From IMG/VR virus record IMGVR_UViG_3300037459_000253, positions 1 to 44,824 of that record: DNA of 44,824 nucleotides. One strand, written 5' to 3'. How positions within the stretch are numbered: the first letter of the stretch is position 1; each line of letters opens with the position of its first letter. Shown one piece after another: positions 1 through 36,236 of the stretch. This stretch comes from a virus. Both the position numbers and the translations under genes were made by a program. The notes below the pieces were generated by a model. That model had not been told where the DNA came from, searched no databases, and worked only from the letters and a program-made list of their open reading frames with translations.

Positions 1-765
1 TACCCAGATCATATTCGTAGACTAAGTTAGTAGTTTGCCCTCCCAAATATAGTTTATGAGAATAGGGGCTTATGTAACTACCTCGGACTCTCACCAATCC
101 ATCGACAGCAGTCGAGAATGAACTCTGAAACTGCGCCGTACTAACATCCCACGGTGTCGTAAGGAGGTACTCAAATACACTATCGTCGGCATCACTTAGT
201 ATGTGCATCAAGAGACCGTCGTCTCTCATTCCCATACCGACGACATCGCTTGGCTCAGAAGGTGTAAACGAGTTTACAAAAGAGGATGTAGTTACATCCC
301 AAGGAGTAGTCAGGTCGTAACTAAACACGGCATCGTTGGCCACGCCTGCGATAATGAACTGCCCTCCATCCGGTCTGAATACAATCGAGAAGGGGCTTGA
401 GTCTTGCGAGTTAACTGAGAAAGATTGATCGAATACAGCTGTAGAAACATCCCAAGCGGTACCCAAATCATACTGATAAACTTCTCTTCCTTGTGCAACA
501 GCAACACCGACTACGTACATGCGTGTTCCATCAGTCTTGAAAGAAACACCGGAAGGAATAGTGTTTTCAGTAAGAACACTAAATGACTGGTTTATGACAG
601 CTGTCGAAACGTCCCAAGCGATAGATAGGTCATACTCAAAGATTGCGCAGTTAGCATTTCCAACCACATAGAGCTTTAAACCGTCGTCCCTGAAAGTCAG
701 TCCATTTTGAGTGCCATCTTCGCTGCCAACATTAAATGTTTGGTTAAATTGTGTGGCACTTACAC
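1..765 (-). repeat. Beta-propeller-like protein repeats, at least five blades
   Basis: Diverged coding repeats of about 48-54 codons. Each ends with a YDL-x-x-[AP]WDVSTA-type strand followed by a QSFSV-type strand, and a DDG/TDG/PDG turn precedes each 'YVVG'-like strand. The fifth copy is cut by the window edge. The copies differ enough in DNA to show that the array is old, although its base composition differs from the flanking fibre stem. Confidence 0.75.
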
Positions 766-1774
766 GACCATCTTTTAGTGAAGGAGCGGCACCTTTTCTT
801 TGAGTTGAATCATCTATGAACTCGATATTGGTTGAAGCGAGGCCCGTGACAACGATGTTCCCCACGACGGCCAGGTTGGTACCGTCGGTCGTGATGCCGG
901 AGGCACCGGCAAACGCTCCCGAGTTGTTGAACTGCAGCTCGGTGTCGTTGCCGCCAGCTGCAGTGCCGCCTGTGTTCAGCCAGACAGACCCGTTGAAGTA
1001 CTCAGGCTCGTTGGTCGTGAGGTTGTAGATCTCCAGACCAGTGGCCGGCGATGCGATGGCGTCACGTTCCGTGGTCGTCATGCGGGGCTGTAGGAAGCCG
1101 CGAGTCGTGGACTCCATTTCCATGAGCGCAGACGCAGCAGGGAACGTGAGGCCCAGGCCGACAGCACCATCGCCGCGCACCGTGAACAGCTTGGCATCGG
1201 AAACGTCATGGACTGCAAAGCCGGTGACGGCCGTAGACGTGCCCACCATCGCCACGATGTCGTTGACGGCGCTGAAGCTGTTCAGCAGGAGGGGTCCTGC
1301 ACCGAGCTGCTCAATCTGGAGGGCACCGGTCTCGTTCCGTATCCGGCTGTCGATGCCATCGTGGAAGATCCTGAAATCAGAGCCGACCCCGAACTGAGCT
1401 TCGATCGAGTCCAGGAACTGGAGCGCAGACGAGCCACCCGACGTGATGAGCCCAGGGTGGCCTTGGAACTCCCCATCGTCGTTGAATTGGACTTGCCCGG
1501 GGTTCCCGCCAACGCCTCGGCGGCCGACTACGATCCATACGGTCCCGTCGAAATACTCGGACGCATTCCTGGTCGTGTTGAAGATCGTCAGACCCTGCTG
1601 GGGGGCACCGATGGCGTCCCGCTGGGTCTCGGTCATGCGTGGGAGCAGGAAGCCCTGGGCGGTTGATAATACGTCCAGGACGGAGGTGGGGTCCGCGTCC
1701 GGCTGCACCCCGATCCCTACGGCTCCATCGAGACCGCCGATCTGGACGATTGGCCCTTTACCTTGATAGCTCAT
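1..1774 (-). CDS. Tail fibre with C-terminal beta-propeller repeats (partial, runs off left edge)
   Basis: An open frame starts at ATG 1774 after a purine-rich AAGGGGGG and stays open to base 1, so the C-terminus is outside the window. The first ~310 residues contain two copies of a fibre motif (PRMT-x-T-x-RDAI-x-x-P-x-x-GL-x-I-x-N-x-T ... EYF-[DN]-G-[TS]-VW) known from many phage fibres, joined by a LQFNNSGAFAG-type linker. From about residue 338 there are at least five repeats of ~50 residues with a DG-x-x-[ML]-YVVG ... YDL-x-x-[AP]WDVSTA-x-F-x-x-SFS consensus, which resemble beta-propeller blades. That second part is distinctly AT-richer than the first. The gene starts 10 nt after the preceding gene stops, so it is the next cistron of the fibre operon. 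It is probably a receptor-binding fibre; the receptor is unknown. Confidence 0.85.
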   Translation of the reverse strand, partial: MSYQGKGPIVQIGGLDGAVGIGVQPDADPTSVLDVLSTAQGFLLPRMTETQRDAIGAPQQGLTIFNTTRNASEYFDGTVWIVVGRRGVGGNPGQVQFNDDGEFQGHPGLITSGGSSALQFLDSIEAQFGVGSDFRIFHDGIDSRIRNETGALQIEQLGAGPLLLNSFSAVNDIVAMVGTSTAVTGFAVHDVSDAKLFTVRGDGAVGLGLTFPAASALMEMESTTRGFLQPRMTTTERDAIASPATGLEIYNLTTNEPEYFNGSVWLNTGGTAAGGNDTELQFNNSGAFAGASGITTDGTNLAVVGNIVVTGLASTNIEFIDDSTQRKGAAPSLKDGRVSATQFNQTFNVGSEDGTQNGLTFRDDGLKLYVVGNANCAIFEYDLSIAWDVSTAVINQSFSVLTENTIPSGVSFKTDGTRMYVVGVAVAQGREVYQYDLGTAWDVSTAVFDQSFSVNSQDSSPFSIVFRPDGGQFIIAGVANDAVFSYDLTTPWDVTTSSFVNSFTPSEPSDVVGMGMRDDGLLMHILSDADDSVFEYLLTTPWDVSTAQFQSSFSTAVDGLVRVRGSYISPYSHKLYLGGQTTNLVYEYDLG

Positions 1775-1784
1775 CGTTCCCCCC

Positions 1785-2504
1785 TTAGAGGATCATCCAG
1801 CCGTTGCCGGGGCCGCGGGATTGAAGGCTCAGACTCCCGAAGTCGACGGCGATCACCTCGGTCTGGCTGCCGTCGATGTCACCACCTACCTGGGCGTCCA
1901 CCGTGATGTTGTTGACGCCCGCCTGGGTGCCGCCGTTGAAGGCGTCTTTGACGTTCACCGTGACGCCAGCCGTCGGTTCCGGGTTGGGCAGCGTGACCGC
2001 GAACCCGGCAACGGACACATCGCATGCGAAGGTGGTGATGCTGGCCTCGAGCGTTGCCACCGAAGGGGTCGGGTCCGCTGACACCTCGACCACGCTGAAG
2101 TCAGCGCTCGGACCTGCCAGCACGTTGAAGGCGTAACCCGTCAGCTCCACCATCATGAAATCGCCGGCTGACGCGGTCGGGGTCAGGCAGCGGCCCAGGA
2201 TGGCCCCGCCAGCGGACGTGACGGCCCTTCCTAGCGCGTCCGATTGGACGGCTGCCCCTCTGGACACCGCACCCCCCGCTTCGACGACAGCGACCCCCAG
2301 GAGCTGGATGCTGCCTTGGCCGCCGAGCGCCAGCTCGGTCTCGGACACTCCGTAGGCCAGAGCGCCCGCGGTGGACAGAGCCACTGAGAACGGGCTGGTC
2401 CCAGTGGCGAGGTTCACAAACCGCCGGGTGGGGATTATCGACCCTGAGACATTGACGCCGGGTCGGTTGCTCTTATCTGGGACAATAGCGACCGGTTCAG
2501 CCAT
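1785..2504 (-). CDS. DUF2190-like decoration protein fused to a fibre-type C-terminal domain
   Basis: 239 residues, ATG at 2504 behind GAGGAG. Residues 1-130 align with the decoration protein at 30354-30758. Both begin MAEP-x-A-x-V-x-DK-x-x-R-x-G-x-N and both carry the AxxRGAAVxSD/AxAKAAAVATD stretch, a GRAVTSAGG/GKMVTAGTG stretch and a closing MVELTG/EVELAG strand. The extra C-terminal ~105 residues have VTLPNPxPTAG, a NNITVDA strand, IDGS and a final GSLSLQS...GNGWMIL. That pattern is common at the C-termini of phage fibres and adhesins. It lies among fibre genes rather than head genes. I infer a particle-surface protein carrying an adhesin domain; whether it binds capsid or tail is unknown. 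Confidence 0.7.
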   Translation of the reverse strand: MAEPVAIVPDKSNRPGVNVSGSIIPTRRFVNLATGTSPFSVALSTAGALAYGVSETELALGGQGSIQLLGVAVVEAGGAVSRGAAVQSDALGRAVTSAGGAILGRCLTPTASAGDFMMVELTGYAFNVLAGPSADFSVVEVSADPTPSVATLEASITTFACDVSVAGFAVTLPNPEPTAGVTVNVKDAFNGGTQAGVNNITVDAQVGGDIDGSQTEVIAVDFGSLSLQSRGPGNGWMIL

Positions 2505-3102: not shown

Positions 3103-3348
3103 CTAGTCTCGGACGGGCTCGCCGTCGAGTCGGCTCATGGCGTTGGTGATCATGGTTTCGTAAGCCGCCCCCACGGTGGCGCCGCCCCCGATGATCTCCA
3201 TGCTCTCTGTGTTAGCCAGCTGGCCATTGCGACGCCGGTACAACACTTGGAAGTTGCCGACGTACCGGAACCCACCAGCCGGGTGCTCACGGATTATCTC
3301 ATCCGTGAGCATGGCTCGATGGTTGTTGTCGGTGATGATCGTTATCAT
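3103..3348 (-). CDS. Small phage protein, translationally coupled to the large fibre
   Basis: 81 residues. ATG 3348 overlaps the stop of the 1430-residue fibre as ATGA, which selects this start over upstream ones and implies coupled translation. The sequence is polar with a YVGNFQVLYRRRNGQ beta segment and GGGATVGAAYETMIT. I do not recognise a family. Its position directly after a giant fibre suggests a fibre assembly or attachment accessory, but this is inference from location only. Confidence 0.55.
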   Translation of the reverse strand: MITIITDNNHRAMLTDEIIREHPAGGFRYVGNFQVLYRRRNGQLANTESMEIIGGGATVGAAYETMITNAMSRLDGEPVRD

Positions 3349-6300
3349 GAGCGATTTCTCTGCCGAGTGGTGGTTGTCGTGGTGCCGTTCTCGTCCAGGG
3401 CGGTGCCGCCCACAACCGCGGCCCACGTCGCGCCGGGGGTATCCTCGAACACGCTCCAGCGGTTGTCCTCGGTGACGCCGTTCAGGGTCACGCAGCTGCC
3501 GGCCTCCAGCATGTCGTTGACGGTGTCACCGATCTGCTGATCCGTCATCGTCCCTTCAAAATAGGCAAGGCCTTCGTAGCTGGCCAGCGCATCCTTGGAC
3601 ATCGTCAGCACGCCCGTGGACACCGTCATGCCCGCGTTTGAGCCGGTGGTCGTACCAAGCTTGAGCGTGTTGATCCAGATCTCTGTCTGAAGGACGCTGC
3701 CGCCCGTCTGGAACGCGCGACCCACTAAGACAAAGTCCTTGTTGGACAGGGGAAACGCCACCGCGGGATTCAGCCCGCCCGTCCCAGCCTGCACTGCGAC
3801 GGCGCTGCCGTCGTGCGCCGTGAACAGGAAGTTGCCAAACGACCACGACAGGAGCCATCCGGTGAGTCCATTGATGGTGGTCACGAAGGTGCCCGAGCCC
3901 AAGCCCAAGTGCGTCGGGTTGAAGTTGCGCACATACAGGAACACCACGAAATCGGCGGCACCCTCGCACAGTACGCCGGAGCTGTCGTAGAAGTCGGACG
4001 AGGATGGCGCGTTGATGTACGTGACATCGGGGATGGTGTTGCCACCACCCGCATCGTCTTCCCATGACAGGACGCTGCGCCCGGCCGAGGGCGCTGCCGC
4101 CGAGAGTACCTGCCCCACGGTCGGTGCATCGATGGGCAACACGTACACCAGGTTGGCATCGCCTGGTCCGGTCGCCCCAGCCACGAATCCCGTGATGTCG
4201 CCATCGTTCGCGATCAACCGAAGCTCGGCCGCATCCGTACCCGATCGCTCGACCAGGACGGCGCCGATGGTGCCCGCAGTTTCCGCGCCCGCCTGGAGGA
4301 TGACGTTGCCGCCGCCGCCAGTTGCGCCGGCTGCGCCGCCGCCAACGGTTACAGACGCGCCGTCTGCCGATCCCTGGCCAGCTCCCCCTGTGAGCGATGC
4401 CGCGCCACCGACCGAGTTGCCAGCTGTGCCCGCGCCACCAGCGAACGTAGCGGCACCGCCAGCGCCCGAGGTTGCACCCCCAACGCCCGCGATGCCTGTG
4501 ATGCCACCACCAACGCCCGTTGCACCGCCGATGCCCGCACGCAGGTCCAGGAGGCCACCCGCGCCCGCTCCCGATCCGGCGGGAGTGATGATCTGATCTC
4601 CGCTGGAAAGGACGATGTCCGTGCCGCCCGTGATGTTGGCCACTGCCAGCACCGTGGCCAGATCATCGCCCGCGGCAATCCAGCTGAGCACGCTGCGACC
4701 AGCCGAGGGAACGGCCGCCGAGAGTACCTGGCCCGCAGTCGGCGCCGAGACGGGCAGGACGTAGATCACCGAACCGCCGGGCCCGGTTGCCCCAGCCACG
4801 AATCCGGTGACCGCGTTGTTGTCGGCCTGCATTTGCAGAGCCTTGGCGCGGCCGCCGCCGTTCAAAATGGCCACACTGCCGTCGTTGGCAACCACGTTGC
4901 CAACGCCGGGGTTGAGGAAGATGGTGCCTGCGATGCCGCCAGACGTACCGCCGTCGCCTGCCGTGGCTTGGATACTCCCACCGGCGGCGTTATCGTCACC
5001 GCCATTGCCAGCCCCACCGGCCGTGACAAATAGAGTGGCACCCGCGCCTGCAGTGCCCGCCACTACGTCGCCGCCGAGGCCCCCGATGATGGAGATGCCA
5101 CTCGCGTCGATGCCGCCGGTCGTGTCGGGCTGCGCCGTCTGGATCAGGATGCTGCCCACTGTGAACGCTGCCTGCGTCAAGATCTGGATGCTGCCGGATT
5201 CGGCGCTCGCGCCGTCTGCAGCACCGCCAGCGACAAGGGCAGTACCGCCGACGCCCCCTGCGTTCGTGTTGGTTCCACCGACCAGGACGGCGGTTCCTGC
5301 AGTGGTGGAGACGATCGCACTGGTGCCGCCTCGTACCACCGCGGCATAGATGGTGCCGTCTTCGGCCGCGCCTTCCATGACCACGCCGGGACCGGTGCCG
5401 CCACCGATGTCACCCGGCCCGATGCCGCCCACCCGAACGCCGGTGCCGCTGAACGTGCCGCCCTCGTAGAAGTCGATCAGAGGTGCCGTCACGTCAGCAC
5501 CGGCAGCTGCGCCGTGAAGCTCGATGGCGACCTCGCCGCCGGCCACGTTGAGAACTGTGTCGATCTGGAATGCCGGCGCCGTGTTGAGCGTGGCCGTGAT
5601 CTGAATGGAGCCGTCGGTGCTGTCACCAGCCGCCTCCGTGGTCAACTGATTGCCGCCGGTGTAAGCCTCCTGCAGGTTCTCGACCTTGCCCAGGTCAAGC
5701 GTGTTCAGCGCGTCGTCGACGAATGCGCCCACGACCGACGAGTCGTTGTCGACCTGGCTCGCGTCATAGTCCGAGGCCACGGCGACAACGAGCCCTGTGC
5801 GGCTGAAGACGCTCGTGACGGGCGCGGCTGGGCTAGCAGCGAACGTGAGTCCCCCGGCGCCGTCAGGGGCCAACCTAAGCGCAGTATCGCTTGTTCCCGC
5901 TGCAAGGTTCTCAACCGTGATTTCATCCGAGCCACCGTCCGAGTGCGTCGCCGCGTGAGCAGTGGACGCCTTCCCGGCGTTCAGGGTGTTCAGTGCGTCA
6001 TCGACGAACGCCCCAGTAACTCCCGAGTCGTTGTCCACCTGGCTGGCATCGTAGTCCGACGCGACTGCGACCACTGCGCCGGATCGCGTGAAGACGCTCG
6101 TGACGCCGCCGACATTGTCTTCCCAACTCAGCACACCGCCGGTCGTGGACGACAGCACTTGGGCCGCCGTCGGGGCGACGCTGGGCAAGGTGTACATCAG
6201 GTTGGTCGCAAGGGCGTCGGGTGCCTTGAAGCCCGAGAAATTGGTGCCGCCCGCGGCCAGCTCCAACAGACGGATCTCGCCGGTGTTCCCTGCGCCAACC

Positions 6301-7637
6301 GCGACGGGGGGAATGGCCAGGGAGGGGTTCGCCGTTGCGGAGATGGTCATCCCGCCGGTATCGGCCACCGTGACCAGGGAGTTCTGAATCAGCTTGCCGG
6401 TGGTGGTGTCGTATCGCGGCAGGGCGTTGTTGGTGGCACTCGCCGGGCCGACGACGTCGCCGGTGCCAGCCGCGGTGATCCACTCCAGGGTGGTGAGCGC
6501 TGCCGCCGCGTTGATGGCGAGCACCTGCCCGGCCGTGCCGCGCGCCGCGGGTAGTTCGTAGTCGGTGTCCTGGGTGGTGGACGGCGCCTGGAGCCCGATG
6601 AAGTTGCCGCTGGCGTCCAGCAGGCGCAGGCGCCCCTGACCCGCCGCCTGGGCGATCTGCACCGAACCATCCGTGCCGCCGTTGGAATCGCCGATCTCCA
6701 ACAGGACGTTGCCGGTGCCGCCGGCCTGCGAACTGCCACTTTTGAACTCAAGGTTACCGCTGGTGGTTGCACCCGTCTGGTCACCCGTCTGAATCCGCAA
6801 GAATCCGCGGACGTCGTCGAACATCTGCAGGGTCAGGTCGGCGTCAACCCCGTTGTTGCCCAGGCCGAACATCGCCAGGTCGGTGGCCCCGCTTCGCTGA
6901 AGCACCAGCCCTGGGACGAATGCCTCGCTCTGGGCCAGTTCCAACACCAGCACACGTTCGTTGTCACTGGCCTGGCCGGAGTTGGCCGCGCCCCGGATGG
7001 TCAACGCCGGTGTGGTGTTGAGCAGCGCCGTGACGACCATGCCGTTCTCGGTCGCGTCCAGTGTCCAGTCGCTGCCGCCATCGTAGGCGCCCTGGAAGTC
7101 GGCGACGCCGCCGCCGCCACCGGCCACCCAGGACAAGACGCCACCAGCCGTAGATGACAGTACCTGTGCCGCCGTAGGCGCGACGCTGGGCAACGTGTAC
7201 ATGATGTCGCCGGCCAGAGCGTCAGGGGACTTGAAGCCCGTGAAGTTCGTTCCGCCAGCAACCAGCTCGAGGAACCGGAGTTCGGCCGTCTCGCCCACGC
7301 CATCACCAGGCGCATTCAGATTGATGGCACCCACGGCACCGGCTGTGTGATCACCGGGGGTCAGCCCGATGCTCGCGCCGTCACCGGTAGAACCACCGTC
7401 GCCGGCAATCAGGTCAACCGGACCGCCCGGGCCACTCGTGTTGCCGTCGCCGCCGATGAGCGCGAGGCTGGATCCCGAGTTGGTAGGAGCGAGGCCGTCA
7501 GCCCCTGTGAGGGTCAGAGCGATCGCACCCGCCGTGAACGCCGCTGCGTCCAACGTGGCGCCGACCGTGGGCGTGCTGCCATTGGCACGCAGAAGCTGAA
7601 TCGCGCCTGTGACTTCGATTCCGGATAGCTTGGCCAC
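3345..7637 (-). CDS. Giant repeat-rich tail fibre with lectin-like C-terminal domain
   Basis: 1430 residues with a GTG start at 7637 behind AAGGAG. The body is built from recurring fibre modules. At least five variants of a unit contain GF-[KV]-A ... YxLP ... PTAxQVLS ... VLSW. There are two copies of a SVF-[ST]-R-[ST]-G-x-VVAVASDYDASQVDNDS module, and long Gly/Ala/Ser/Thr-rich stretches with GGxGG turns. About residue 1190 onward (DNA 3345-4070) the composition changes to a mixed beta domain (FVVFLYVRNF, LLSWSFGNFLFTAHDG, FVLVGRAFQTGG, SYEGLAYFEGTMTDQQI). It resembles a concanavalin/LamG-type jelly roll, the kind that binds glycans. Probably the main long fibre. The protein ends with a Thr run and basic residues. 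Confidence 0.85.
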   Translation of the reverse strand: MAKLSGIEVTGAIQLLRANGSTPTVGATLDAAAFTAGAIALTLTGADGLAPTNSGSSLALIGGDGNTSGPGGPVDLIAGDGGSTGDGASIGLTPGDHTAGAVGAINLNAPGDGVGETAELRFLELVAGGTNFTGFKSPDALAGDIMYTLPSVAPTAAQVLSSTAGGVLSWVAGGGGGVADFQGAYDGGSDWTLDATENGMVVTALLNTTPALTIRGAANSGQASDNERVLVLELAQSEAFVPGLVLQRSGATDLAMFGLGNNGVDADLTLQMFDDVRGFLRIQTGDQTGATTSGNLEFKSGSSQAGGTGNVLLEIGDSNGGTDGSVQIAQAAGQGRLRLLDASGNFIGLQAPSTTQDTDYELPAARGTAGQVLAINAAAALTTLEWITAAGTGDVVGPASATNNALPRYDTTTGKLIQNSLVTVADTGGMTISATANPSLAIPPVAVGAGNTGEIRLLELAAGGTNFSGFKAPDALATNLMYTLPSVAPTAAQVLSSTTGGVLSWEDNVGGVTSVFTRSGAVVAVASDYDASQVDNDSGVTGAFVDDALNTLNAGKASTAHAATHSDGGSDEITVENLAAGTSDTALRLAPDGAGGLTFAASPAAPVTSVFSRTGLVVAVASDYDASQVDNDSSVVGAFVDDALNTLDLGKVENLQEAYTGGNQLTTEAAGDSTDGSIQITATLNTAPAFQIDTVLNVAGGEVAIELHGAAAGADVTAPLIDFYEGGTFSGTGVRVGGIGPGDIGGGTGPGVVMEGAAEDGTIYAAVVRGGTSAIVSTTAGTAVLVGGTNTNAGGVGGTALVAGGAADGASAESGSIQILTQAAFTVGSILIQTAQPDTTGGIDASGISIIGGLGGDVVAGTAGAGATLFVTAGGAGNGGDDNAAGGSIQATAGDGGTSGGIAGTIFLNPGVGNVVANDGSVAILNGGGRAKALQMQADNNAVTGFVAGATGPGGSVIYVLPVSAPTAGQVLSAAVPSAGRSVLSWIAAGDDLATVLAVANITGGTDIVLSSGDQIITPAGSGAGAGGLLDLRAGIGGATGVGGGITGIAGVGGATSGAGGAATFAGGAGTAGNSVGGAASLTGGAGQGSADGASVTVGGGAAGATGGGGNVILQAGAETAGTIGAVLVERSGTDAAELRLIANDGDITGFVAGATGPGDANLVYVLPIDAPTVGQVLSAAAPSAGRSVLSWEDDAGGGNTIPDVTYINAPSSSDFYDSSGVLCEGAADFVVFLYVRNFNPTHLGLGSGTFVTTINGLTGWLLSWSFGNFLFTAHDGSAVAVQAGTGGLNPAVAFPLSNKDFVLVGRAFQTGGSVLQTEIWINTLKLGTTTGSNAGMTVSTGVLTMSKDALASYEGLAYFEGTMTDQQIGDTVNDMLEAGSCVTLNGVTEDNRWSVFEDTPGATWAAVVGGTALDENGTTTTTTRQRNRS

Positions 7638-9243: not shown

Positions 9244-11277
9244 CTAGAAGACCGCGTTCACACGTCCCGCCGTCATGATGAAGAACGAGAAATCAAGCGC
9301 CGCCAACGCGAACTTGTCGAGCGTGTGAGTACTGACGTTCACTGCAACAGCCGCTATCTCAAACTCAGCAGGCAGCTGTGTGGTGACGACCGGTAGCAAA
9401 ATAAGATTACTACCAGCCACAATGGGATTCATCGTGATCATGTACGTGCTGTCATATGAAAAATCGAGACTGACCAGTGCTTGATCGCCGTTGGCCCCCG
9501 CTGCGAAACTTGTGACACCTTCATTCTCGAACAGATTGTAGGTGTCACCAGCGACCGTGTGAGTGACAAGCCCCCATGCGCGGACAAGCCATGGGATACG
9601 GTCATCGATCAAGCGCGCCCAGCCAGGGGCAGCCGTGGTGTCGCGGCCGATGTACGCACTCCTTTCCATGCCGGCGCCATTCCCCGAGAAGAACAGATCT
9701 CCATCTATCGGAGTCGCCGGGAAATCGTCCACCGGGTTGCTATGGAAATGACCGCGTCGCGGGGAGTTCACCGGGATCGCAGCTTCGAATGCGTACGCCT
9801 CCGGATTGGTGGTGTCAGCAATCGAGAACACACCCGCGCCGAACTGGGTGTCAGCTCCGGTAATTCCAGATCCCCGAGCGAATACGCCGAAGCCCTCAAG
9901 CGCTCCATCTTGCGAAGTAGCTGCAACGCCGATACCAGTCGCAACGCCATGGCCTACGAATGACGCACCCACCGACAAAGACGCGAGCGTGGCTCCCTCG
10001 CCAAACACACCAACACCGGACGCGTCCGCTGAAGCGGTCGCCAGGGCACCCTCCGCCAATGAATCCACCCGGCCAACGAGACCATTGCCCTCGAGACCCG
10101 CGGGAGCAAGGGCGGCTCCGCCGACACCTTCAACGCCGTGACCGGCTGCCTGTCCAGCGGTGACGTCGTCGTTGTCACCACCCCGGGCGAAGACACCGTG
10201 CCCTGCCGTGACTAGCGTGCTGCTGTCAGCACCGCCGCCGATCGCGAACACACCATGACCACCGAACGCGCCGACATTCGCAGTCCCGCTAAGGATCTCA
10301 CCCCCGAGGGTTTCCACGCCATGGGCACCGCTACCACCATTGCCATCGTTGCCGCCCGCGAAGATGCCCCCTGCACCTGCGAAAACCAACACGCTGGCAA
10401 CGGCGGCTTGTCCACGGCCGCCAAGACTGAAGGATCCGGCGCCGCCGTAGGCACCCACTACCGTTCCCTGACCACCCAGAGCGACGATGCCGTTACCCGT
10501 CGCGCCTACATCGGGGAAGGCACCACCACCGAGCGGCAACATGCTAGCCGTATCCGCGCTGTCACCGCCGGTCGCGTTGATGCCGTTGGCCAGATCGGTC
10601 GAAAGAATGGCACCCCCCGTCCAATCACCTGCAGCGGTGTTACCACCAATCGCAATTGCCCCGGGTCCAGGTAGCTGGTCGGTCTCGGTGGACTCCCCTC
10701 CCAGCAAACTACCCCCGGTACCACCTACACCAGACGAGCCAGCGAGCGTCGCGCCACCCTGGGCGAACAGTCCATCACCCCCTTCGCTCGAGCTAGCGAG
10801 CATCCCGGTCGCCCTCGGGCCACCTACGGCAGTGACGCCCACGCCGCCCGTCGACCCAAGCACCCCGTCACTGCCACCACCGGTGACAATCAAGCCGATG
10901 CCCGTACCACTGGCCTGAATCTCCACCCCAGGCTGCGTAGAAAGAGACGTGGGAGTGCTTGCGAGGAACGCGCCCATGGCTTTGGTCGCCCCTGCAGCGG
11001 GAACCAAGACCTCCACCAACAACCCGTGCAACAGATCGATGCCCGAAGGGGGCCGGATGTGCATCACAGCCGTGTCAGCACCGGGCACAGCGGTCGCCAA
11101 CGTGGCGTCGAGAGTGATATACCCATCTCCACGACCAGCGACTGTCTGCAGGGCGTAGATGCCACCCGCAACACCGTCCAGATTCTGGGTGGTGTGGATG
11201 TCCACCAGGTTTATTTGGCCCGATCTGAGCAACTCGAAGGCTGCCCACCCAAGCGGATTCGCGCGGGGCGTCGTCAC
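9244..11277 (-). CDS. Gly-rich repeat tail fibre
   Basis: 677 residues. The GTG start at 11277 overlaps the upstream stop as GTGA. A short N-terminal attachment region (1-125; NPLGWAAFELLRSGQ, then HGLLVEVLVPAAG) is followed by about 350 residues of irregular repeats with the core G-[HNTS]-G-[VIL]-x-[AV]-x-GG, spaced about 25-30 residues. The repeats suggest a repetitive beta-solenoid or polyglycine-type stem. The C-terminal ~170 residues are non-repetitive (YIGRDTTAAPGWARL, then SLDFSYDSTYMITMNPI, ending FFIMTAGRVNAVF), and probably form the tip. It is the first large fibre downstream of the gp48-like baseplate gene, the usual place for Mu fibre genes. It has no recognisable Mu S homology. 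Confidence 0.75.
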   Translation of the reverse strand: MTTPRANPLGWAAFELLRSGQINLVDIHTTQNLDGVAGGIYALQTVAGRGDGYITLDATLATAVPGADTAVMHIRPPSGIDLLHGLLVEVLVPAAGATKAMGAFLASTPTSLSTQPGVEIQASGTGIGLIVTGGGSDGVLGSTGGVGVTAVGGPRATGMLASSSEGGDGLFAQGGATLAGSSGVGGTGGSLLGGESTETDQLPGPGAIAIGGNTAAGDWTGGAILSTDLANGINATGGDSADTASMLPLGGGAFPDVGATGNGIVALGGQGTVVGAYGGAGSFSLGGRGQAAVASVLVFAGAGGIFAGGNDGNGGSGAHGVETLGGEILSGTANVGAFGGHGVFAIGGGADSSTLVTAGHGVFARGGDNDDVTAGQAAGHGVEGVGGAALAPAGLEGNGLVGRVDSLAEGALATASADASGVGVFGEGATLASLSVGASFVGHGVATGIGVAATSQDGALEGFGVFARGSGITGADTQFGAGVFSIADTTNPEAYAFEAAIPVNSPRRGHFHSNPVDDFPATPIDGDLFFSGNGAGMERSAYIGRDTTAAPGWARLIDDRIPWLVRAWGLVTHTVAGDTYNLFENEGVTSFAAGANGDQALVSLDFSYDSTYMITMNPIVAGSNLILLPVVTTQLPAEFEIAAVAVNVSTHTLDKFALAALDFSFFIMTAGRVNAVF
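9837..10902 (-). repeat. Gly-rich fibre repeat array
   Basis: Codons ~125-480 of the fibre gene encode about a dozen degenerate units of the G-x-G-[VI]-x-A-x-GG type (for example GHGVFAIGGG, GHGVFARGGD, GHGVEGVGGA, GNGIVALGGQ). Unit length varies by several residues, so the array is protein-level repetition and not a simple DNA tandem repeat. Confidence 0.7.
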
Positions 11278-19827: not shown

Positions 19828-21876
19828 CTAACCTGCCTTGCTATCTGCGCCGGGAGTGGACGTCGGGGGAGGCGCCACCCCTCGCGAAGTGTCCTTGCCC
19901 ATCTTCTTGGTGTAGCTGGTCACGACCGCCAATGACGCGGCCAACTTATTCGCAGCGGCGGTCACCTTGTCATTGGCTTCCGCCTCGGCCAGCTGACCCT
20001 TCAAGATCTTGGCTTCGGCTTCCAATGCGTCAGAAGCGCGATCGCGCTTCTGACCGGTGGTGAGTTTCATGTCACCGCCCGTCGCACCAGCCCATCCCTC
20101 CACCAGAAAACTGACCGCGTCATCGAACGTGCTGGCCGTATCTTCCAGCTGCTTCTGAGCGATCTCGACATCCAGCAGAGCGCCCTGCTTCTCACCTCTA
20201 CTAGCGCCCGGTTTATCGGACACCCTCATAGCCGTCTCAACCGTCAGCCCGGCATCTTCCACAGCCCTGAAGCTCTCTTGGGCTACGTCGTCCATACCGG
20301 TAAGCCATCGGAACCCCGTCCCGACAGCTACACCTGCCGCTGCCGCTAGTGTAAGCGCCGCTGCGGCCGACGCGGCCGCCCCCGCTAGCCCTGCTAGACC
20401 TGCACCCCCGCCAGCCGCCGCTCTGACGGCCCCGCCAACGCCAAGGGTGGTAGCTCCCCGGGTGGCGATGCTGGCGGCCCCGCTAGCACCCTGCACGGCC
20501 AGCGTCTGGGCGAACATGGCTGCCATGCCCTTCGCTGCTACTTCGGCGATCATCGACCCACCGAACGCGAGCGCCAGCTTGCCCCCCACGATAGCCGCAA
20601 GACTTCCCCACGGATTATCCACAACCTTCGTGATGATCGAAGCGAGGGCATCGGCGAATGCAGGTAGCTTGTCTGCCAGCTTATCGAATGCCGCGATCAT
20701 CGACGGCTGGACCATCGCTTCCTTCACCCGGGCCAGCGCTAGGTTGAACTTGACGAGGGGGTCGGACTTCACGCGCTCAGCGGCTTCGGCCTGAATCTCA
20801 CTGTACTTCATTGTCGACTTGCTGGCTTCCGCCAGGTTGGCATCGAACGCCTCCATGCCCGCCTTCACAGCGTCAGCCTGCGACAACCCGCGCGCCTTCG
20901 CTTTCTCCATCGCCTCGTCGAATGGGATGGCAAGCTCGTCGTAGACCACACGAGCGTCGGCGGTGAACACCTGCTCGGCCGACTTGCGGCCCTTCGTGCT
21001 GGATAGGATGGCCTTCATCTTATCCATGGCGGTCATGTCCGCAGTGAAGGTGACCCCACTGCCCATGTCCTTCTTCAGCCGAATGAACTGGGCGCTCCCT
21101 CCCTTCAACGTCTGGAACATCAGCTTCAAACCGGGGTCAGCCTTCTCACCTATGGTGCTATCAAGCAACAGCAACACTCCGAGCAATTCAGAAATGCCCT
21201 CAGCTCCCTTAAAGCCTGCATTAGCCGCTTCACCTGCGACCAGAGCGAAGCGGCTAGATAGTTCTTCAATGCCCTTGCCGCCCACGCCAGTCTTCTCGAT
21301 CATTCGAGTCATGGCTTCTTCCATCTCATCAGGTCCAACCCCGAACTTACGAGATGCGAGCTGCATGGTGGTGGCCAGTGCGTCGATGCTGTGACCGGTC
21401 GCCGTGGCAGTGGTGCCGATGATGTCCATCGACTTCTTAGCAAACTCCATCGACCCGGTGGCCTCAAACACCGTCATGAATGCAGTCGACAGATCGTCAG
21501 CGTTGCGCCCGGTCTTCTGGACCGAGTCCGCGATCATCTGCTGGATGTCATTCCACTCGACCGCGTTGCCGGCCACCTTGTTCACGTTGAAGGCGATGTT
21601 CTTGTAGGTGTTCTGCATCTGCAGGGCATCTTTGGCTAGCCCTGTGAATGCCAACGCACCGCCCAGCGTCGCTACCGTCTTCACCCCGTTCTTCAGGGTA
21701 CTCATCATCCCACCGAGTTCGGTGCGGGCTGACTTCAGCCCCGCCGTCATCGGTCCACGCAACGCCGCACCCATCCGCTTGCCAGCGGACTTCGTCATGT
21801 TCTCCATCCGCCGCAGTCCCGATTGGAACGACTGCGGCAGCAGAGTGACCTTTATCGATGCTTCGCGGGCTGCCAT
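19828..21876 (-). CDS. Tail tape measure protein
   Basis: 682 residues, ATG 21876, beginning 4 nt after the end of the frameshifted chaperone product. Residues 1-420 are helical with IDALATTMQLASRKFGVGPDEMEEAMTRMIEKTGVGG-type sequence typical of tape measures. Residues ~424-525 are a Gly/Ala-rich hydrophobic block that could insert into the inner membrane during DNA entry. At the usual ~0.15 nm per residue, 682 residues predict a tail of roughly 100 nm (inference). Confidence 0.9.
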   Translation of the reverse strand: MAAREASIKVTLLPQSFQSGLRRMENMTKSAGKRMGAALRGPMTAGLKSARTELGGMMSTLKNGVKTVATLGGALAFTGLAKDALQMQNTYKNIAFNVNKVAGNAVEWNDIQQMIADSVQKTGRNADDLSTAFMTVFEATGSMEFAKKSMDIIGTTATATGHSIDALATTMQLASRKFGVGPDEMEEAMTRMIEKTGVGGKGIEELSSRFALVAGEAANAGFKGAEGISELLGVLLLLDSTIGEKADPGLKLMFQTLKGGSAQFIRLKKDMGSGVTFTADMTAMDKMKAILSSTKGRKSAEQVFTADARVVYDELAIPFDEAMEKAKARGLSQADAVKAGMEAFDANLAEASKSTMKYSEIQAEAAERVKSDPLVKFNLALARVKEAMVQPSMIAAFDKLADKLPAFADALASIITKVVDNPWGSLAAIVGGKLALAFGGSMIAEVAAKGMAAMFAQTLAVQGASGAASIATRGATTLGVGGAVRAAAGGGAGLAGLAGAAASAAAALTLAAAAGVAVGTGFRWLTGMDDVAQESFRAVEDAGLTVETAMRVSDKPGASRGEKQGALLDVEIAQKQLEDTASTFDDAVSFLVEGWAGATGGDMKLTTGQKRDRASDALEAEAKILKGQLAEAEANDKVTAAANKLAASLAVVTSYTKKMGKDTSRGVAPPPTSTPGADSKAG

Positions 21877-25105: not shown

Positions 25106-26635
25106 TTAGGATTCTCGTTCAATGTTCGACCGGCCGAATGTAAATGGGGTGCCCAGCACCAGTGACGCGGTGGCGATGTCGACGCCCGAATCGTTGCTGA
25201 AATCGTTGACCCCTGGGTTGCTGCCCTCGACCACCAGGGCCGCCCCGCCGACCAAGATTTGAGAACCCGTCTTGGCGATCCCGGCGTGGGCCAGCGTGCT
25301 GCGGTATGACCCGTCGTCAACCTCAACCTGGGCGCCCTTGGAGGCGAGCAGGGCTGGTCCTGCGCTGTTGACAGCGTCAACCACTGCACTGCCCGCATCC
25401 AAGCTGATCCGAATCATGGCCCCTGGACCGTCGGCCCAAAATGTCCCATTGGAGTCCGCACTGTCCAGCGCGTACCAAGACCCGAGCACGCCCACCAGCA
25501 CCTCGCATGCGCCAATGGCTTGAACCCCCCCGCTGCCGCCTTGAACGTGGGACCGGCCGGACTCACGGAACACCGCGAACCCGGCGGGGGGTTGCGTAAG
25601 CCATCCCATGAAGTCTGAGAGCACGATGAACGAAGTGTCGACCTTGGCCAGTCCCCAGCCGACCCACCGCAAATCGAGTGCGGATTCATCGACGGGGTTA
25701 CCGGCGTCGGCCAGAGCGATGAATGGCAACGCATCCTCGTAGGGGGTGCCCAGCGGCGAAAACCGAGCGGCCGCGTAGACCGACGCACCACCCAAGCAAA
25801 GGCCGCTGTTGCCGGACACCTCCAGCCCGAATGCCAGTATTGTCGAGTCGGCAATGGTCGGGCCGAGCGGGGCGCCCAGCGGGAAGTCCAGCCGGATGTT
25901 CACGAATCCGATACAGCGGCGGAACGGAGCTTTACCCGCCGGCCCTTGTCCATTATCTCGACTGCCAATGCCGTCCGCGATGATGAAGTCGTCCGTGCCC
26001 GAGTACTGAAGTAACGCACCCGCGCGAACAATGCGGAACGTGTCGCCGGGTACAAACCCGGCAATGGCCCGGCCCACGTACAAATCGTCACCGTTGACCC
26101 GGTTGATGTGGCGCATCGCGCCAACGGCCACGCCGCTGGTCACCTCCAGCGTGTTGGACACGAACGCATTGGTGACCGACCCCGAGGTCACGATGATCTC
26201 CTCAGTGGACCCGGCCAGCGATGCCTCGGCTGCGCGCGTCTCCACGAACCCGTCGTCGCCAACCTGGCCGGCGCCATCGCCAAACATCCACACTGGAGAT
26301 CGCAGCCCCCAGCCCGCGGGGAAGACCGGGCCCACGTGGTTACCCGAGTCAAACTTGAAGATGACTGGCCACGCCGGGCCAGCTGCGTGCGCGTCGATGT
26401 ACGGCTGCGCGGTGGCCAGGGCGGCGAGGGCCGTCAGCCCATCGTTGGAGTCGTTGCCGTTAGCCTGGGAGACGAAGATGATGACCGTGTTGGAGATGTC
26501 GGGGGCGCTCGCTGCAACCTCGGCCGCATCGACTTTGACCGTGAACCCATTCTGAGTGCACGGGAACAGCTCGTCCCCCTGGAGGGGCTTGTTGCCATCA
26601 ACGAGTGCCCCAATCTTGATCGGTACATCAGCCAT
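25106..26635 (-). CDS. Right-handed beta-helix protein, adhesin or virion decoration
   Basis: 509 residues, ATG 26635 with AAGGA upstream. Residues 56-68 (SQANGNDSNDGLT) are the start motif of the pectate-lyase-like parallel beta-helix superfamily. Residues ~70-470 are repetitive strand-turn units (TSGSVTNAFVSNTLEVTSGVAVG, ADGIGSRDNGQG, HVQGGSGGVQAIGACEVLVG). No polysaccharide-lyase active-site residues can be assigned with confidence. It is unusual to find such a protein between the tail terminator and the sheath. It could be a collar-bound or capsid-bound adhesin or depolymerase. Confidence 0.7.
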   Translation of the reverse strand: MADVPIKIGALVDGNKPLQGDELFPCTQNGFTVKVDAAEVAASAPDISNTVIIFVSQANGNDSNDGLTALAALATAQPYIDAHAAGPAWPVIFKFDSGNHVGPVFPAGWGLRSPVWMFGDGAGQVGDDGFVETRAAEASLAGSTEEIIVTSGSVTNAFVSNTLEVTSGVAVGAMRHINRVNGDDLYVGRAIAGFVPGDTFRIVRAGALLQYSGTDDFIIADGIGSRDNGQGPAGKAPFRRCIGFVNIRLDFPLGAPLGPTIADSTILAFGLEVSGNSGLCLGGASVYAAARFSPLGTPYEDALPFIALADAGNPVDESALDLRWVGWGLAKVDTSFIVLSDFMGWLTQPPAGFAVFRESGRSHVQGGSGGVQAIGACEVLVGVLGSWYALDSADSNGTFWADGPGAMIRISLDAGSAVVDAVNSAGPALLASKGAQVEVDDGSYRSTLAHAGIAKTGSQILVGGAALVVEGSNPGVNDFSNDSGVDIATASLVLGTPFTFGRSNIERES

Positions 26636-29269: not shown

Positions 29270-30304
29270 CTAGACGACGCCCGTGATGATCCCACCAGCG
29301 TTGTCCGCGGTCATCTTGGCCTCGTCCGCCATGCCGACCACGACCATCGTGCCACCCTCAGGTCCGCGATTTTCCACGAAGAACTCGCGGACGTTGAAGC
29401 CGTTTCCGGCCGGGCCTCGACGTCGGAACGTCCAGGTCGTCGCGATGTCCTCGCCGTCCGCGGGGACGCCGGGGGTGTGCGTGATGAGGTTCACCACGTT
29501 GGCGAAGACGTAGTCCAGAGCGTCCGTGGATTCGTTCTTGACCTTGGATGCGGACACCTTGATGGGCGGAAGCCCGGGGATGTCCACGTCCAGATTCTCG
29601 ATGCCCGCTCGAAGGACCGCATTGGCCACCTCGGGTGCTCGGTCGTCCCCAAAGTACTGCCGCATCGAAGACACGATCTGGGGATGTCGCAGGAAGATGT
29701 GGGCAACGCTCTGGTTCATCCAGACCGAAGACACGGGCTGCGCAGACGCCTCGATGGAGTCCTGCAGGTCCGTGAGGGGCGTGCCGAGGGTGGCGTCCGT
29801 CCACGGGTTCGCCGCCGCGTTGACCACCGAAGCATCCCAGCTTGCGGTGGCGTTCAACAGCGCGAACACGTCCAGCTCTCGATCCAGCTCGATGGCTCGC
29901 CGGCAGCGGCGCATCGAAGCGAAGACGGGACGGTAGTTGTTCCCCGTCTGACGCTGCGTCTGCATCGGGATGAACGAGCCCACGAAGCGCTCGACCACCT
30001 TGTACGAGTCCAGGCTGGACTTGGGATCCACCTCTGGCACCGCGGACTGGGTCGAACCCTTCACGTCGACGCGTCGGAACGCATCGTCGGAGTTGAACGT
30101 CCGGAACTTGTCCGAGTCGTTGTCGACCAGGACGGGCACCGACAGTTCATCCGCCCGGTAGCCGAACGGCTTGTACCCCGCAAGGTACTCCGGCAGCTCG
30201 GTGGGATCGTGCACGTCCTGTGGCTCAAGAGCCAGAGTGACGCGTTGACCTTTGACGCCGTAGCCGGGCATGTCATTGGTCAGGGTGAGTGTAATCTCCT
30301 TCAT
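29270..30304 (-). CDS. Major capsid protein
   Basis: 344 residues. I chose ATG 30304 (GGAG 7 nt upstream) over an ATG two codons earlier. The N-terminal part is charged, and the middle contains NNYRPVFASMRRCRRAIELDRELDVFALLNATASWD. The C-terminal part has MNQSVAHIFLRHPQIVSSMRQYFGDDR, PGVPADGEDIATTWTFRRR and a closing GGTMVVVGMADEAKMTADNAGG. These match capsid proteins of the DUF2190/gpI cluster, expected to have an HK97-type fold. It follows the decoration gene, and is followed by a terminator-like hairpin. Confidence 0.85.
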   Translation of the reverse strand: MKEITLTLTNDMPGYGVKGQRVTLALEPQDVHDPTELPEYLAGYKPFGYRADELSVPVLVDNDSDKFRTFNSDDAFRRVDVKGSTQSAVPEVDPKSSLDSYKVVERFVGSFIPMQTQRQTGNNYRPVFASMRRCRRAIELDRELDVFALLNATASWDASVVNAAANPWTDATLGTPLTDLQDSIEASAQPVSSVWMNQSVAHIFLRHPQIVSSMRQYFGDDRAPEVANAVLRAGIENLDVDIPGLPPIKVSASKVKNESTDALDYVFANVVNLITHTPGVPADGEDIATTWTFRRRGPAGNGFNVREFFVENRGPEGGTMVVVGMADEAKMTADNAGGIITGVV

Positions 30305-30353
30305 ATCCATTCTCCTTTGGAGGTTCCCTGATGAGAGAAGCGCGGTCAGGCCA

Positions 30354-30758
30354 TTACGGCGAGACCGTGCCACCTCCCGGCCCAGCGAGTTCGACCTCGA
30401 TCAGCTCGTCTGCACCAGCAGCCGCCTTCACGAGATAGCCAACGATGATGTCCCCGGTGCCAGCGGTGACCATCTTGCCAGCGACGTCCGTCGCGACGGC
30501 AGCTGCCTTCGCGATAGCTGCGCCCGACGTGCAGATCGCCTTCTGGTTCAGCTGCACGTCACCGCGACTGAACTGGGGGATGGCCTCCATGGAGATCCCG
30601 AAAATGGGACCACCCGCGGAGGGCAGAATGACGTCATGCGGCTCCGTGCCCCCGCTGTTGAGGGCGACCGCAATGGCCTTATCGATACCCGCGCTGATGG
30701 TGCTGTTTAGGCCCCCTCGGATACCCTTGTCTGCGACTACTGCGGTAGGTTCCGCCAT
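30354..30758 (-). CDS. Head decoration protein (DUF2190-like)
   Basis: 134 residues, ATG 30758 behind CAGGAG. Beta-rich and Ala/Gly-rich with SAGGPIFGISMEA, RGDVQLNQKAICTSGAAIAKAAAVATD, and VGYLVKAAAGADELIEVEL. This is the DUF2190 pattern (head stabilisation/decoration), encoded between scaffold and major capsid genes as in many phages. A second, extended paralogue lies at 1785-2504. Confidence 0.75.
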   Translation of the reverse strand: MAEPTAVVADKGIRGGLNSTISAGIDKAIAVALNSGGTEPHDVILPSAGGPIFGISMEAIPQFSRGDVQLNQKAICTSGAAIAKAAAVATDVAGKMVTAGTGDIIVGYLVKAAAGADELIEVELAGPGGGTVSP

Positions 30759-30837: not shown

Positions 30838-32631
30838 CTACTTGCGCAGTCCCGTGCAGACCACGTTGGGCTGCTTTTTGAAGTTGTAGGCCATCGACAT
30901 CTGGGTGTCGTAGTCGAGGCCGTCCCAGTTCGGGAGCGTGGCCGCCAAGTGGGCCTTCGCTGCGGCCGATGGGTTCGGCGCGTCGTACACGTCCAGGTTG
31001 ATGATGTCCTGGCCGCCGGCGATGGGGAGCACGGCGGGGGCCGGCGCAGGCGCGTTCTGGGACGTGCGGATGACCTGGCCGGTCGCCTGGTTCACGCGAA
31101 GCTCGGTGCCCCCGGGCTGGGTGACCAGCGGCTGGGTGAGCTGCTGCTTGGCCTCGACGTCGGCCGCGGGCTTTCCGGGCCACTTCTTCACGAACTCGAC
31201 GTGCCCGATCTGCTTGTGAAGCAGCACCATGGCGTCCTTCATTTCGGGCTGCCAGGCGTTGGCCGCGATGGCCTCGTCCACGTCCTTCTCGACGTCGGCA
31301 GCATCCCGCTCGACCTTCTCGGTCCGGAAGGCCTTCAGCTCGGGCATGGCCGTCACAAGCTCGTCTGCCTGGCGAACCAAGTCGGCGACCTTGTTCACGG
31401 AGCCGGCTGCATCTTCGACGCCCAGGGCGGTGAAGAGACCGGCCAGTGTCTCACGGGCCGCCTTGGCGCCATCGGCGACGTCCTTGGCTTCGGCAAGCAG
31501 CACCCTGGTGCCATCGCGATCCATGCCCAGCGTGGACTTGATGCCACCGCGCAGCTCGACCAAGTCCAAAACGGCCTCGGTGATGACGGTCTCGTTTTCC
31601 CGGACACCCAGTGCCGAGGCCAGTGCTTTCAGAATCTCCATTGTCTCTGTCCCTTCGGTGGATGCCGATGCAGCAACAGCTGCTGCTGCTTCGTCTGTCG
31701 GTGCCGCCGGTGGTGGCGCGGCATCCGTATTCGGGGCCAAAGCCCCAGGCGTGTTTTCGACAACGCCCTGCAATTGCGTGAGTGCCGACGTGATCACTTC
31801 AGCGTCTGGCATCAGTGGCGGCATGTTCAAGATGGTACGAATCGCCCCGAGGATCATCTCGGTGTCGACGCCCAGCGGGGCGACACCGGCAGCGACGAAC
31901 TGAGCCATCTTGCCGAGTTCCTCGAAAATCTCTTCGATGCCGTCGGTCTCGGACTTGCCGAACAGCTCCTTGAGCATCCGGACGGCTTCCATGGGGGTGT
32001 CGGCTGCGTCGTAGAACCGGCGAGCTTCGACGTCTGCCTTTGCGTTTGCCACGAGCTTTTCCATTCCCTGGATGAACGGCACGTTGGTCAACGCGATGGA
32101 CGAAATGGTCGCGCCCATGTCCTGCCCAGTCACGGGGTGTGTAGCATTGAAGTGCACCGCGACGCTTGCCCATTGGTACTGGCCGGCCTTGATGTAGCCC
32201 TTCGCCGGATCCAAGAACTGGGTCAGCGCCCAGAGTTCAGCCTTGCCGTCAGTGCCCTGGCGGACCTGGAAATCCATGGTCCATGCCTGGGCCGGGGCTC
32301 CGGTCGACGGGAGGGAACCGGTCGTCGGAGGCTGCTCGCTGGCATGGTCAAAATCCCACGGCACCAGGTTCGTCTTCCCGATGCCATCCTCACCGGCAAC
32401 GAACGACGGGTGGGCGTGAGCGTTCTTGACGATCTGTTCGAACGTCTCCGGGGTGAACATGAAGCCCTGCTTACCACCCTGGTAGCCAAGGTAGATGCCT
32501 TCACGTGCGACCATCACCCACTTCGCGGAGTCGCCGACATCGGTGCCCAGCTCAACGGCGAGCTTCACCCCTTGGGCCTTCGCGGGGCCTGACTTCAAGG
32601 TCACCGATCGCTGCAGTCGTCGTCGACTCAT
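30838..32631 (-). CDS. Capsid protease and scaffold (Mu gpI-like)
   Basis: 597 residues, ATG 32631. The N-terminal protease domain has WDFDHASEQ (His96, candidate catalytic base), KAGQYQWASVAVHFN (Ser156, candidate nucleophile) and SSIALTNVPFIQGM, the LTNxP signature of Mu gpI. After residue ~280 a Pro/Ala/Thr linker leads to a long helical scaffold domain (residues ~320-500), then a tail with NQATGQVIRTSQNAPAPAPAVL. In the Mu I gene a shorter internal product Z is the scaffold; an in-frame methionine near residue 330 (METMEIL) could be such a start. Cleaves itself and other head proteins during maturation. Confidence 0.8.
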   Translation of the reverse strand: MSRRRLQRSVTLKSGPAKAQGVKLAVELGTDVGDSAKWVMVAREGIYLGYQGGKQGFMFTPETFEQIVKNAHAHPSFVAGEDGIGKTNLVPWDFDHASEQPPTTGSLPSTGAPAQAWTMDFQVRQGTDGKAELWALTQFLDPAKGYIKAGQYQWASVAVHFNATHPVTGQDMGATISSIALTNVPFIQGMEKLVANAKADVEARRFYDAADTPMEAVRMLKELFGKSETDGIEEIFEELGKMAQFVAAGVAPLGVDTEMILGAIRTILNMPPLMPDAEVITSALTQLQGVVENTPGALAPNTDAAPPPAAPTDEAAAAVAASASTEGTETMEILKALASALGVRENETVITEAVLDLVELRGGIKSTLGMDRDGTRVLLAEAKDVADGAKAARETLAGLFTALGVEDAAGSVNKVADLVRQADELVTAMPELKAFRTEKVERDAADVEKDVDEAIAANAWQPEMKDAMVLLHKQIGHVEFVKKWPGKPAADVEAKQQLTQPLVTQPGGTELRVNQATGQVIRTSQNAPAPAPAVLPIAGGQDIINLDVYDAPNPSAAAKAHLAATLPNWDGLDYDTQMSMAYNFKKQPNVVCTGLRK

Positions 32632-35600: not shown

Positions 35601-35818
35601 ACGTAGGCCGCGCGCAGGGACGTCTCGATGCGATCCATGGAGATGGACCGGCCGAACCGCTGGCGGTTGACCCGCTGAGCGTTCTGATCCGTGAACAGCT
35701 TACTGGTCAGGATCTCAACAGGGGCGGTCGCGGCATCCTCCTGTTGCGGATATGCCTGAAGCTGGATTGTCCCCAGCGACTTCACCATCGGATTGTGACG
35801 CGTCCGCCGTCGACCCAT
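32684..35818 (-). CDS. Portal protein fused to MuF head morphogenesis domain
   Basis: 1044 residues in one frame. Residues ~1-470 are a DUF935-type Mu portal (gp29): FTDQNAQRVNRQRFGRS, ADPHLASILQKRFGSLSSLPWEVQPP and RMILLELFGKPWRIIEVDEES. Residues ~470-700 are a variable Pro/Ala/Asp-rich linker with a short SEDGTRSFGVFPTRVEAEDRLRQVE module. Residues ~840-1020 are MuF (gp30): HVETVFRTNVLNAYNRGRA, then PPFGFNCRCR with the CRC at 1007-1009. In Mu these are two adjacent genes. No frameshift or stop separates them here. Confidence 0.85.
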   Translation of the reverse strand: MGRRRTRHNPMVKSLGTIQLQAYPQQEDAATAPVEILTSKLFTDQNAQRVNRQRFGRSISMDRIETSLRAAYVGSMRDITDLSRETIDADPHLASILQKRFGSLSSLPWEVQPPVGQHIDPERAMYYAEVVRAQLNSLKGFRQNLEQLAWALFDNRAAQELHWLQVPTGEASTSDLYGNVGMVVQALAWIHPRRLSYGPHRELRVQDERVDIGGNFTPSGLALEDIPDKFIWWKPQLFGEYAEREGLGQRCMYWSFFKRYSARERMILLELFGKPWRIIEVDEESSAGAEELENADTIIDNLGSSYTARMPRGTRVHVEQPQKTAGAIHDDVIKSVDAQLSKLVLGQTGTTDGIQIGLNGGSVMDGLVNEQLGILVRDARQLSELIETMLTDRIIALNFGESAVTHAPKFILRADRPTDRNEELKRLESALKAGLSVAQDEAYEASGFRVPTVTEVVIAVEQPPTPPAAANPPAPRAITIYPIDKSPVAGEQLPAPPVASADGEGGQQPSAPISSDDAATVTTVGEARNQAGLPPFGDERDQLTVAEFEAQGNSINQAVQSASDAGDAQREGSQDDRDRATEELDSANDLDVVASPQITTLTMDIPTVECTIKKVAGGFEALSEDGTRSFGVFPTRVEAEDRLRQVEFFKTQATLIGVLEDDDAVVAAKHKKRRYLQFHLSCGCATDIPQTEAGYVRLIREHAQPSGDFGSSESILDKSQTSSRSIMRSLAGSYFEAIDNARPGALGIFNSINAAAQGMDITPLAREIERRMLQSFMLGAIDSAREAVTDSTAPGDETITEVVTESEELAGDVEDVNQAIGKVLTSSVLLATTPPDFSKMNFRAATKFFKDQKVVTRTVFDQMSAAAKRRSFTVAGVMNTQMLQTIRSELSREIAGGADLATFAKAAEDRLKSAGFLAQVVEFAPGQTALSASHVETVFRTNVLNAYNRGRAAQQQSPAMLRARPVWEIRAVGDDRTRATHKAASGRKLSATDPFWQSAYPPFGFNCRCRVVTRGRSELDTITTGTMIAGLPDSGFSSGIGGLL

Positions 35819-35834
35819 GGGCGGAAGGTATCAC

Positions 35835-36236
35835 CTACCCCGTCGTACGCGCCAGCCGTTGAGCGCACCAACCCCAGAATCGAGCCCACCCCGATGGCCG
35901 ACCATGCGCCAGTTGCAGCCGAACTTCATCTGCGCGCTGCGACTCCAATTGCAACGCAGCGAGACCCTGGGTTAGCCACTGATCCGCTACTCCACGCGAC
36001 TCCGACACTGCCACACGCGTCTGCTTTTCGAAGCTACGCATCATCTCAGCAAAGGCCTTGGACGTATCATCGCCGCTCTTACTATGGGCTACCTCATATT
36101 GACCCGCCCAGCGGCCGAAATCTTCGGCGCATTGGGCCCATGCCTCAGCGCGGCCGCGGGCAATCCCCGATTGGTACAGGTGGTAGTTCGTCCCCCGAAG
36201 CGCGATCAGCTGCGGCTCATTTTTTGAGGTGCTCAC
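35835..36236 (-). CDS. Coiled-coil phage protein of unknown function
   Basis: 133 residues from GTG 36236, supported by GGAG 5 nt upstream; an ATG at 36275 is an alternative that would overlap the previous gene more. Residues 20-110 are helical and Ala/Glu/Gln-rich (SFEKQTRVAVSESRGVADQWLTQGLAALQLESQRADEV). The C-terminus has aromatic residues (GWARFWGWCAQRL), which could touch membrane. It lies between terminase and portal and has no recognisable family. Confidence 0.5.
   Translation of the reverse strand: MSTSKNEPQLIALRGTNYHLYQSGIARGRAEAWAQCAEDFGRWAGQYEVAHSKSGDDTSKAFAEMMRSFEKQTRVAVSESRGVADQWLTQGLAALQLESQRADEVRLQLAHGRPSGWARFWGWCAQRLARTTG

Follow-up and report, generated by a model that had tools for sequence, protein, structure and literature searches.

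In the phi29 head fibre protein gp8.5, an N-terminal beta-tulip base (6qyy) attaches to the capsid and is followed by a C-terminal protrusion in the form of an alpha-helical supercoil (reviewed in PMC7602432). The capsid stabilisation protein of HFTV1 is trimeric and sits on the MCP shell; the gp8.5 base is among its structural matches (PMC12494034). Hoc, T5 pb10 and Sf14 gp20 are second capsid decorations with exposed Ig-like domains and a proposed role in adhesion (PMC11821841, PMC7602432). XD1 of the CBA120 tail spike TSP4 (residues 80-178) is a trimeric gp9/gp10-type module, apparently a spacer, and the glycan-binding domains of StcE and CpaA have the same fold (PMC8825819).

Here we describe a gene (1785..2504, minus strand) whose 239-residue product joins a DUF2190 cement domain of beta-tulip type to a C-terminal beta-sandwich of the gp9/gp10 XD1 type. 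As in gp8.5, a predicted N-terminal beta-tulip base precedes a putative C-terminal protrusion; unlike the helical supercoil of phi29, however, the protrusion is predicted to be a beta-sandwich, and the phage has a separate plain cement protein. Because the C-terminal part is predicted to be all-beta, the protein is considered gp8.5-like in plan and is not classed as a gp8.5 homologue. It resembles Hoc, T5 pb10 and Sf14 gp20 as a putative second capsid decoration with an exposed domain, but its putative capsid-binding part is a different one and no sequence link to them was seen. No Ig-like domain was detected in it by Pfam, PHROGs and NCBIfam or among the significant PDB fold matches, which sets it apart from Hoc-like proteins. 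Compared with DUF2190/PF09956 decoration proteins, to which the N-domain belongs by cut-off and predicted fold, it has an additional C-terminal domain and its gene lies away from the capsid gene. The XD1-type domain, linked by profile and fold matches to T4 gp10, T4 gp9 and TSP4 XD1, sits in a baseplate or tail-spike protein in T4 and CBA120, whereas here it ends a cement protein.

The gene lies among fibre-like genes

The window, meaning the whole 44.8-kb virus contig analysed, carries a contractile-tailed gene set on the minus strand, comprising terminase, a fused portal/minor head protein, a Mu-like protease, a DUF2190 protein, capsid protein, neck, sheath, baseplate and fibres. The sheath shares roughly 23-28% identity with those of Mu-like phages. 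None of the genes scanned in the record was recognised as a transposase, so the term Mu-like applies to the virion genes only. Searches with the capsid, terminase and portal proteins returned a single relative of the phage (capsid, 53%). In the head cluster, a single-domain DUF2190 decoration protein of 134 residues (30354..30758, minus strand; Pfam, PHROGs) is encoded between the head maturation protease/scaffold (30838..32631, minus strand; Mu-like_Pro PF10123, phrog_328) and the major capsid protein (29270..30373, minus strand; phrog_1005).

The reading frame at 1785-2504 is intact. It starts with ATG, the sequence GAGGAG about 9 nt upstream serves as ribosome-binding site, and its GC content by codon position (0.65/0.53/0.80) is coding-like. 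Its stop is separated by only 10 nt from the next minus-strand gene (2..1774), which is truncated by the contig end and encodes a fibre-like protein with propeller-like repeats and two copies of the fibre motif GFLLPRMTETQRDAI...EYFDGTVW. Upstream, in the same direction, a repetitive protein of 1430 residues (3345..7637, minus strand) appears fibre-like by inspection and has no Pfam or PHROGs family match. The sequence-only reading had placed the gene among fibre genes, 28 kb from the head genes. This placement holds: the distance to the head-cluster DUF2190 gene is 27.9 kb and the neighbours look like fibre proteins.

The N-terminal domain is a DUF2190 cement domain

Residues 1-125 (2130..2504, minus strand) form the DUF2190 domain. 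The reported match of this part to the head-cluster protein was reproduced by BLASTP, with 35% identity over 126 residues (E = 1e-12), and these are the only two DUF2190-like places in the record. The N-terminal part belongs to Pfam PF09956 (Phage_cement_2) by sequence, scoring 33.3 bits against a cut-off of 24, and the family matches it more strongly than it matches the head copy. It also matches phrog_673 (E = 2.3e-18) and retains every residue that is invariant among eight DUF2190 proteins.

In a full-length AF2 model, residues 125-239 came out unresolved, which is why each domain was modelled on its own. A mixed alignment of all relatives was discarded because pieces of the C-domain fell under the N-domain. 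With an alignment of close relatives, the N-domain model reached block-mean pLDDT values of about 84-95 over residues 11-120. Structure prediction, proposed earlier as a check on whether a DUF2190 fold is present here, returned a beta-tulip-type decoration fold, and the top PDB matches are capsid decoration proteins. The best is 6qyy_A, the base of the phi29 head-fibre protein gp8.5 (E = 8.1e-7, prob 1.00, TM 0.77 by target), and further matches include the HFTV1 capsid (8qsy), the TW1 capsid stabiliser, and the Pam3 and T1 capsids.

The two DUF2190 proteins had been presented as paralogues. The term calls for caution, because the N-domain is nearer to head decoration proteins of other phages (41-42% to those of L007, L052 and L054) than to the copy in its own genome (35%). 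In a small tree it grouped with the L007 and L054 head copies, with weak support (0.54). A recent duplication of the head copy is thus not supported.

The C-terminal domain is of the fibre and baseplate type

Residues 126-149 are a probable linker, and residues ~150-239 (1788..2057, minus strand) form a second domain recognised by HMM, phrog_20556 and predicted fold. The C-terminal part alone matches phrog_20556, annotated 'baseplate protein', in an independent comparison (E = 2.8e-4). An HMM built from seven relatives, with the protein itself left out, scored it at 34.2 bits (E = 5.5e-9), compared with 14.3 for the best of 5,000 shuffled sequences; an eight-member HMM gave 41.4 versus 15.5. 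The seed sequences were reached from weak tblastn matches through HCTV-2 gp58 to baseplate proteins of haloarchaeal viruses and proteins of Arthrobacter and Salicola phages. Some seeds were first spotted via the protein under study, which is mildly circular, a concern to which the shuffle test is directed.

An alignment-based scan located the domain in 33 viral contigs, where it usually forms the final ~90 residues of fibre-like proteins and is internal in baseplate-type ones; it also lies inside archaeal-virus baseplate proteins. The copy studied here retains the conserved residues of its family and shares up to 39% identity with those in the 33 contigs. The earlier description of the part as a domain that ends fibres is thereby borne out; since no second copy was found inside the window, it rests on outside sequences. 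Profiles that include the C-terminal part itself gave weak, family-level matches to T4 gp10 (E = 2.7e-4) and CBA120 TSP4 (E = 0.0018).

The domain is predicted to be all-beta, with block-mean pLDDT values of 79-93 in its core. Its predicted fold matches TSP4 XD1 (7rej; E = 2.2e-5, prob 1.00, TM 0.69 by query), and the matched TSP4 residues 101-175 fall within XD1. Other fold matches are T4 and KP1 gp10, T4 gp9, StcE and CpaA. The likeness to StcE and CpaA is only suggestive of glycan binding. A capsid spike of phage Pa223 was also listed, as a weak match (rmsd 13.6), and a search for a paper on this spike found none. Ubiquitin matches to one C-domain relative and matches of designed 'Pizza' proteins to the DUF2190 profile were rejected, each being the sum of many low-scoring repeats. 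In three other contigs (L023, L028 and L036), several adjacent genes each end in a gp9/gp10 XD1-type domain, with two copies in some proteins.

DUF2190 relatives and cement-fibre fusions in other phages

Six close DUF2190 relatives from IMG/VR (L003, L006, L007, L052, L053 and L054) are all single-domain proteins of 124-139 residues. Each of their genes directly precedes a capsid-protein-sized gene, and the next gene in L003 is a confirmed capsid relative. The gene at 1785-2504, 27.9 kb from its phage's head-cluster DUF2190 gene, departs from this habit, which is a genomic and not a structural one.

The search for extended DUF2190 proteins that had been suggested from the sequence, run over the complete records of the relatives, yielded a fusion in a more distant phage, L061 (IMGVR_UViG_3300025087_000989). 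Its gene (L061 8694-10529; G027 34,693-36,528) encodes 611 residues, in which a DUF2190-type N-domain is followed by ~490 residues of fibre-like sequence. The extension matches the tail-fibre families phrog_892 and phrog_7660 and, by tblastn, annotated tail fibres. The gene lies between the protease and capsid (phrog_1005) genes, directly upstream of the latter, in the same head gene order as in the present record, and is the sole DUF2190 match found in its contig. The two fusions thus share a cement-type N-domain followed by fibre-type sequence; they differ in that the L061 protein has a long repetitive shaft and is encoded beside the capsid gene, whereas the 239-residue protein has one added domain. 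We propose the L061 protein as a long head fibre candidate. A search for further DUF2190-fibre fusions, covering 80 loci that carry the L061 shaft and 33 that carry the C-domain, returned only the L061-type gene again, in a second contig.

Of the 50 best beta-tulip matches in a library of viral structures, 18 have lengths of 218-954 residues, wherever the tulip lies, and names such as 'Head fiber protein' or 'tail fiber-like' occur among them. Long extensions thus appear to be common on the beta-tulip proteins of viral structure databases. The suggestion that such an arrangement is undescribed was therefore too strong, since a cement or beta-tulip base with a protrusion is the plan of phi29 gp8.5 and long extensions are found on many viral beta-tulip proteins. 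The unusual points are the separate location of the gene and the presence of a second, plain cement protein. The general design is that of known head fibres; what looks new is the pairing of the two domains and their place among tail-fibre genes.

A probable short head spike and its alternatives

The analysis shows the identity of both domains, by sequence and predicted fold, the setting of the gene, and a cement-fibre fusion that occurs independently in the head cluster of another phage. From these we infer that the 239-residue protein enters the virion, lies on the capsid and forms a trimer, and what it does there. A capsid-bound protrusion is the best reading, given that the N-domain fold is matched best by the base of the phi29 head fibre and that a related phage has a DUF2190-fibre fusion beside its capsid gene; the protein is probably a short head spike. 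The beta-tulip domain would sit as a trimer on the capsid exterior, as in other beta-tulip cement proteins, and the beta-sandwich, trimeric in solved relatives of the gp9/gp10-XD1 type, would project from it on a linker of ~25 residues. The phage would then have two cement-type proteins: one is plain and made together with the head proteins, while the other bears a protruding module and is made together with the fibres. The module would most likely serve surface contact, such as weak attachment to cells, glycans or other particles, or hold another fibre, for example the product of 2-1774. A role as adhesin is putative, and the spacer and connector roles of its relatives urge caution; the module may instead cap the spike. 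Against a head spike count the position of the gene, 28 kb from the head genes and adjoining fibres, and the six close DUF2190 relatives, which are single-domain and encoded beside the capsid gene. So do the solved relatives of the C-domain, which are baseplate or tail-spike parts, and the modelling, in which each domain was predicted separately.

The same gene position, within the fibre cluster and 10 nt before a fibre-like gene, would fit a protein that is never on the capsid, its cement-type domain having been recruited as an assembly module of a fibre or baseplate complex. The C-domain, with relatives mainly among baseplate gp9/gp10 and tail spikes, is consistent with such a tail part. The N-domain points the other way: all of its solved top fold matches are capsid surface proteins, and its degree of conservation equals that of true head decoration proteins. 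The L061 fusion, encoded in a head cluster directly before the capsid gene, likewise argues for the head, and we consider a tail or baseplate part unlikely. The short spacing to 2-1774 can also be taken to mean that a C-domain trimer on the capsid holds that fibre on the head, as a docking base not itself binding cells. T4 gp10 and TSP4 bind partner trimers in a comparable way, via neighbouring XD domains. However, XD2 and XD3 are the modules that bind partners, whereas XD1, the module matched here, is described as a spacer that binds no partner on its threefold axis (PMC8825819). In most relatives, moreover, the C-domain is a free C-terminal end. As these relatives are mostly connectors or spacers, the domain could in itself equally be a docking site, but as an account of the whole protein a docking base is decidedly improbable. 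There is likewise just a slim chance that this contractile-tailed phage mounts a baseplate-type connector on its head through the second cement protein and, by carrying the 2-1774 fibre on it, places tail-type fibres on the capsid. Taking spike and docking base together, location on the capsid is rather likely.

A chance fusion or a decaying gene with no role in the virion would be in line with the result that no full-length relative of the protein was found by tblastn and pattern scans of phages, plasmids, IMG/VR and GTDB genomes. This explanation is very hard to reconcile with the intact frame, the ribosome-binding site and the coding-like codon-position GC, and with the fact that both domains keep the conserved residues of their families.

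The protein shows that a DUF2190 cement domain can carry putatively exposed modules derived from fibres and baseplates; fusions of this kind occur in a head cluster (L061) as well as among fibre genes (1785-2504). Should the protein prove to lie on the capsid, phage heads may touch their hosts more often than annotation suggests, since genes of this sort receive the label 'cement' or else 'tail fibre'. In practice, a gene of a fibre cluster whose product begins with a DUF2190 domain is best marked as a head fibre candidate.

Other features of the record

Three large proteins of the structural region (9244-11277, 19828-21876 and 25106-26635) are without a convincing Pfam or PHROGs match. The portal and MuF-type minor head protein form one frame both here (32684-35818) and in L061 (5334-7685), matching phrog_113 and phrog_220. 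Just upstream of 1785-2504 on the minus strand, a strong hairpin at 2565-2625 (CAGGGGA...TCCCCTG, with a nested AACC/GGTT stem; z = -1.96) is not accompanied by a T run. Within the fibre gene 2-1774, GC content drops from ~0.62 to 0.43-0.47 over positions 1-800 of the window, where the propeller-like repeats (YDL..PWDVSTA) start, which suggests that this distal part of the fibre was exchanged recently.
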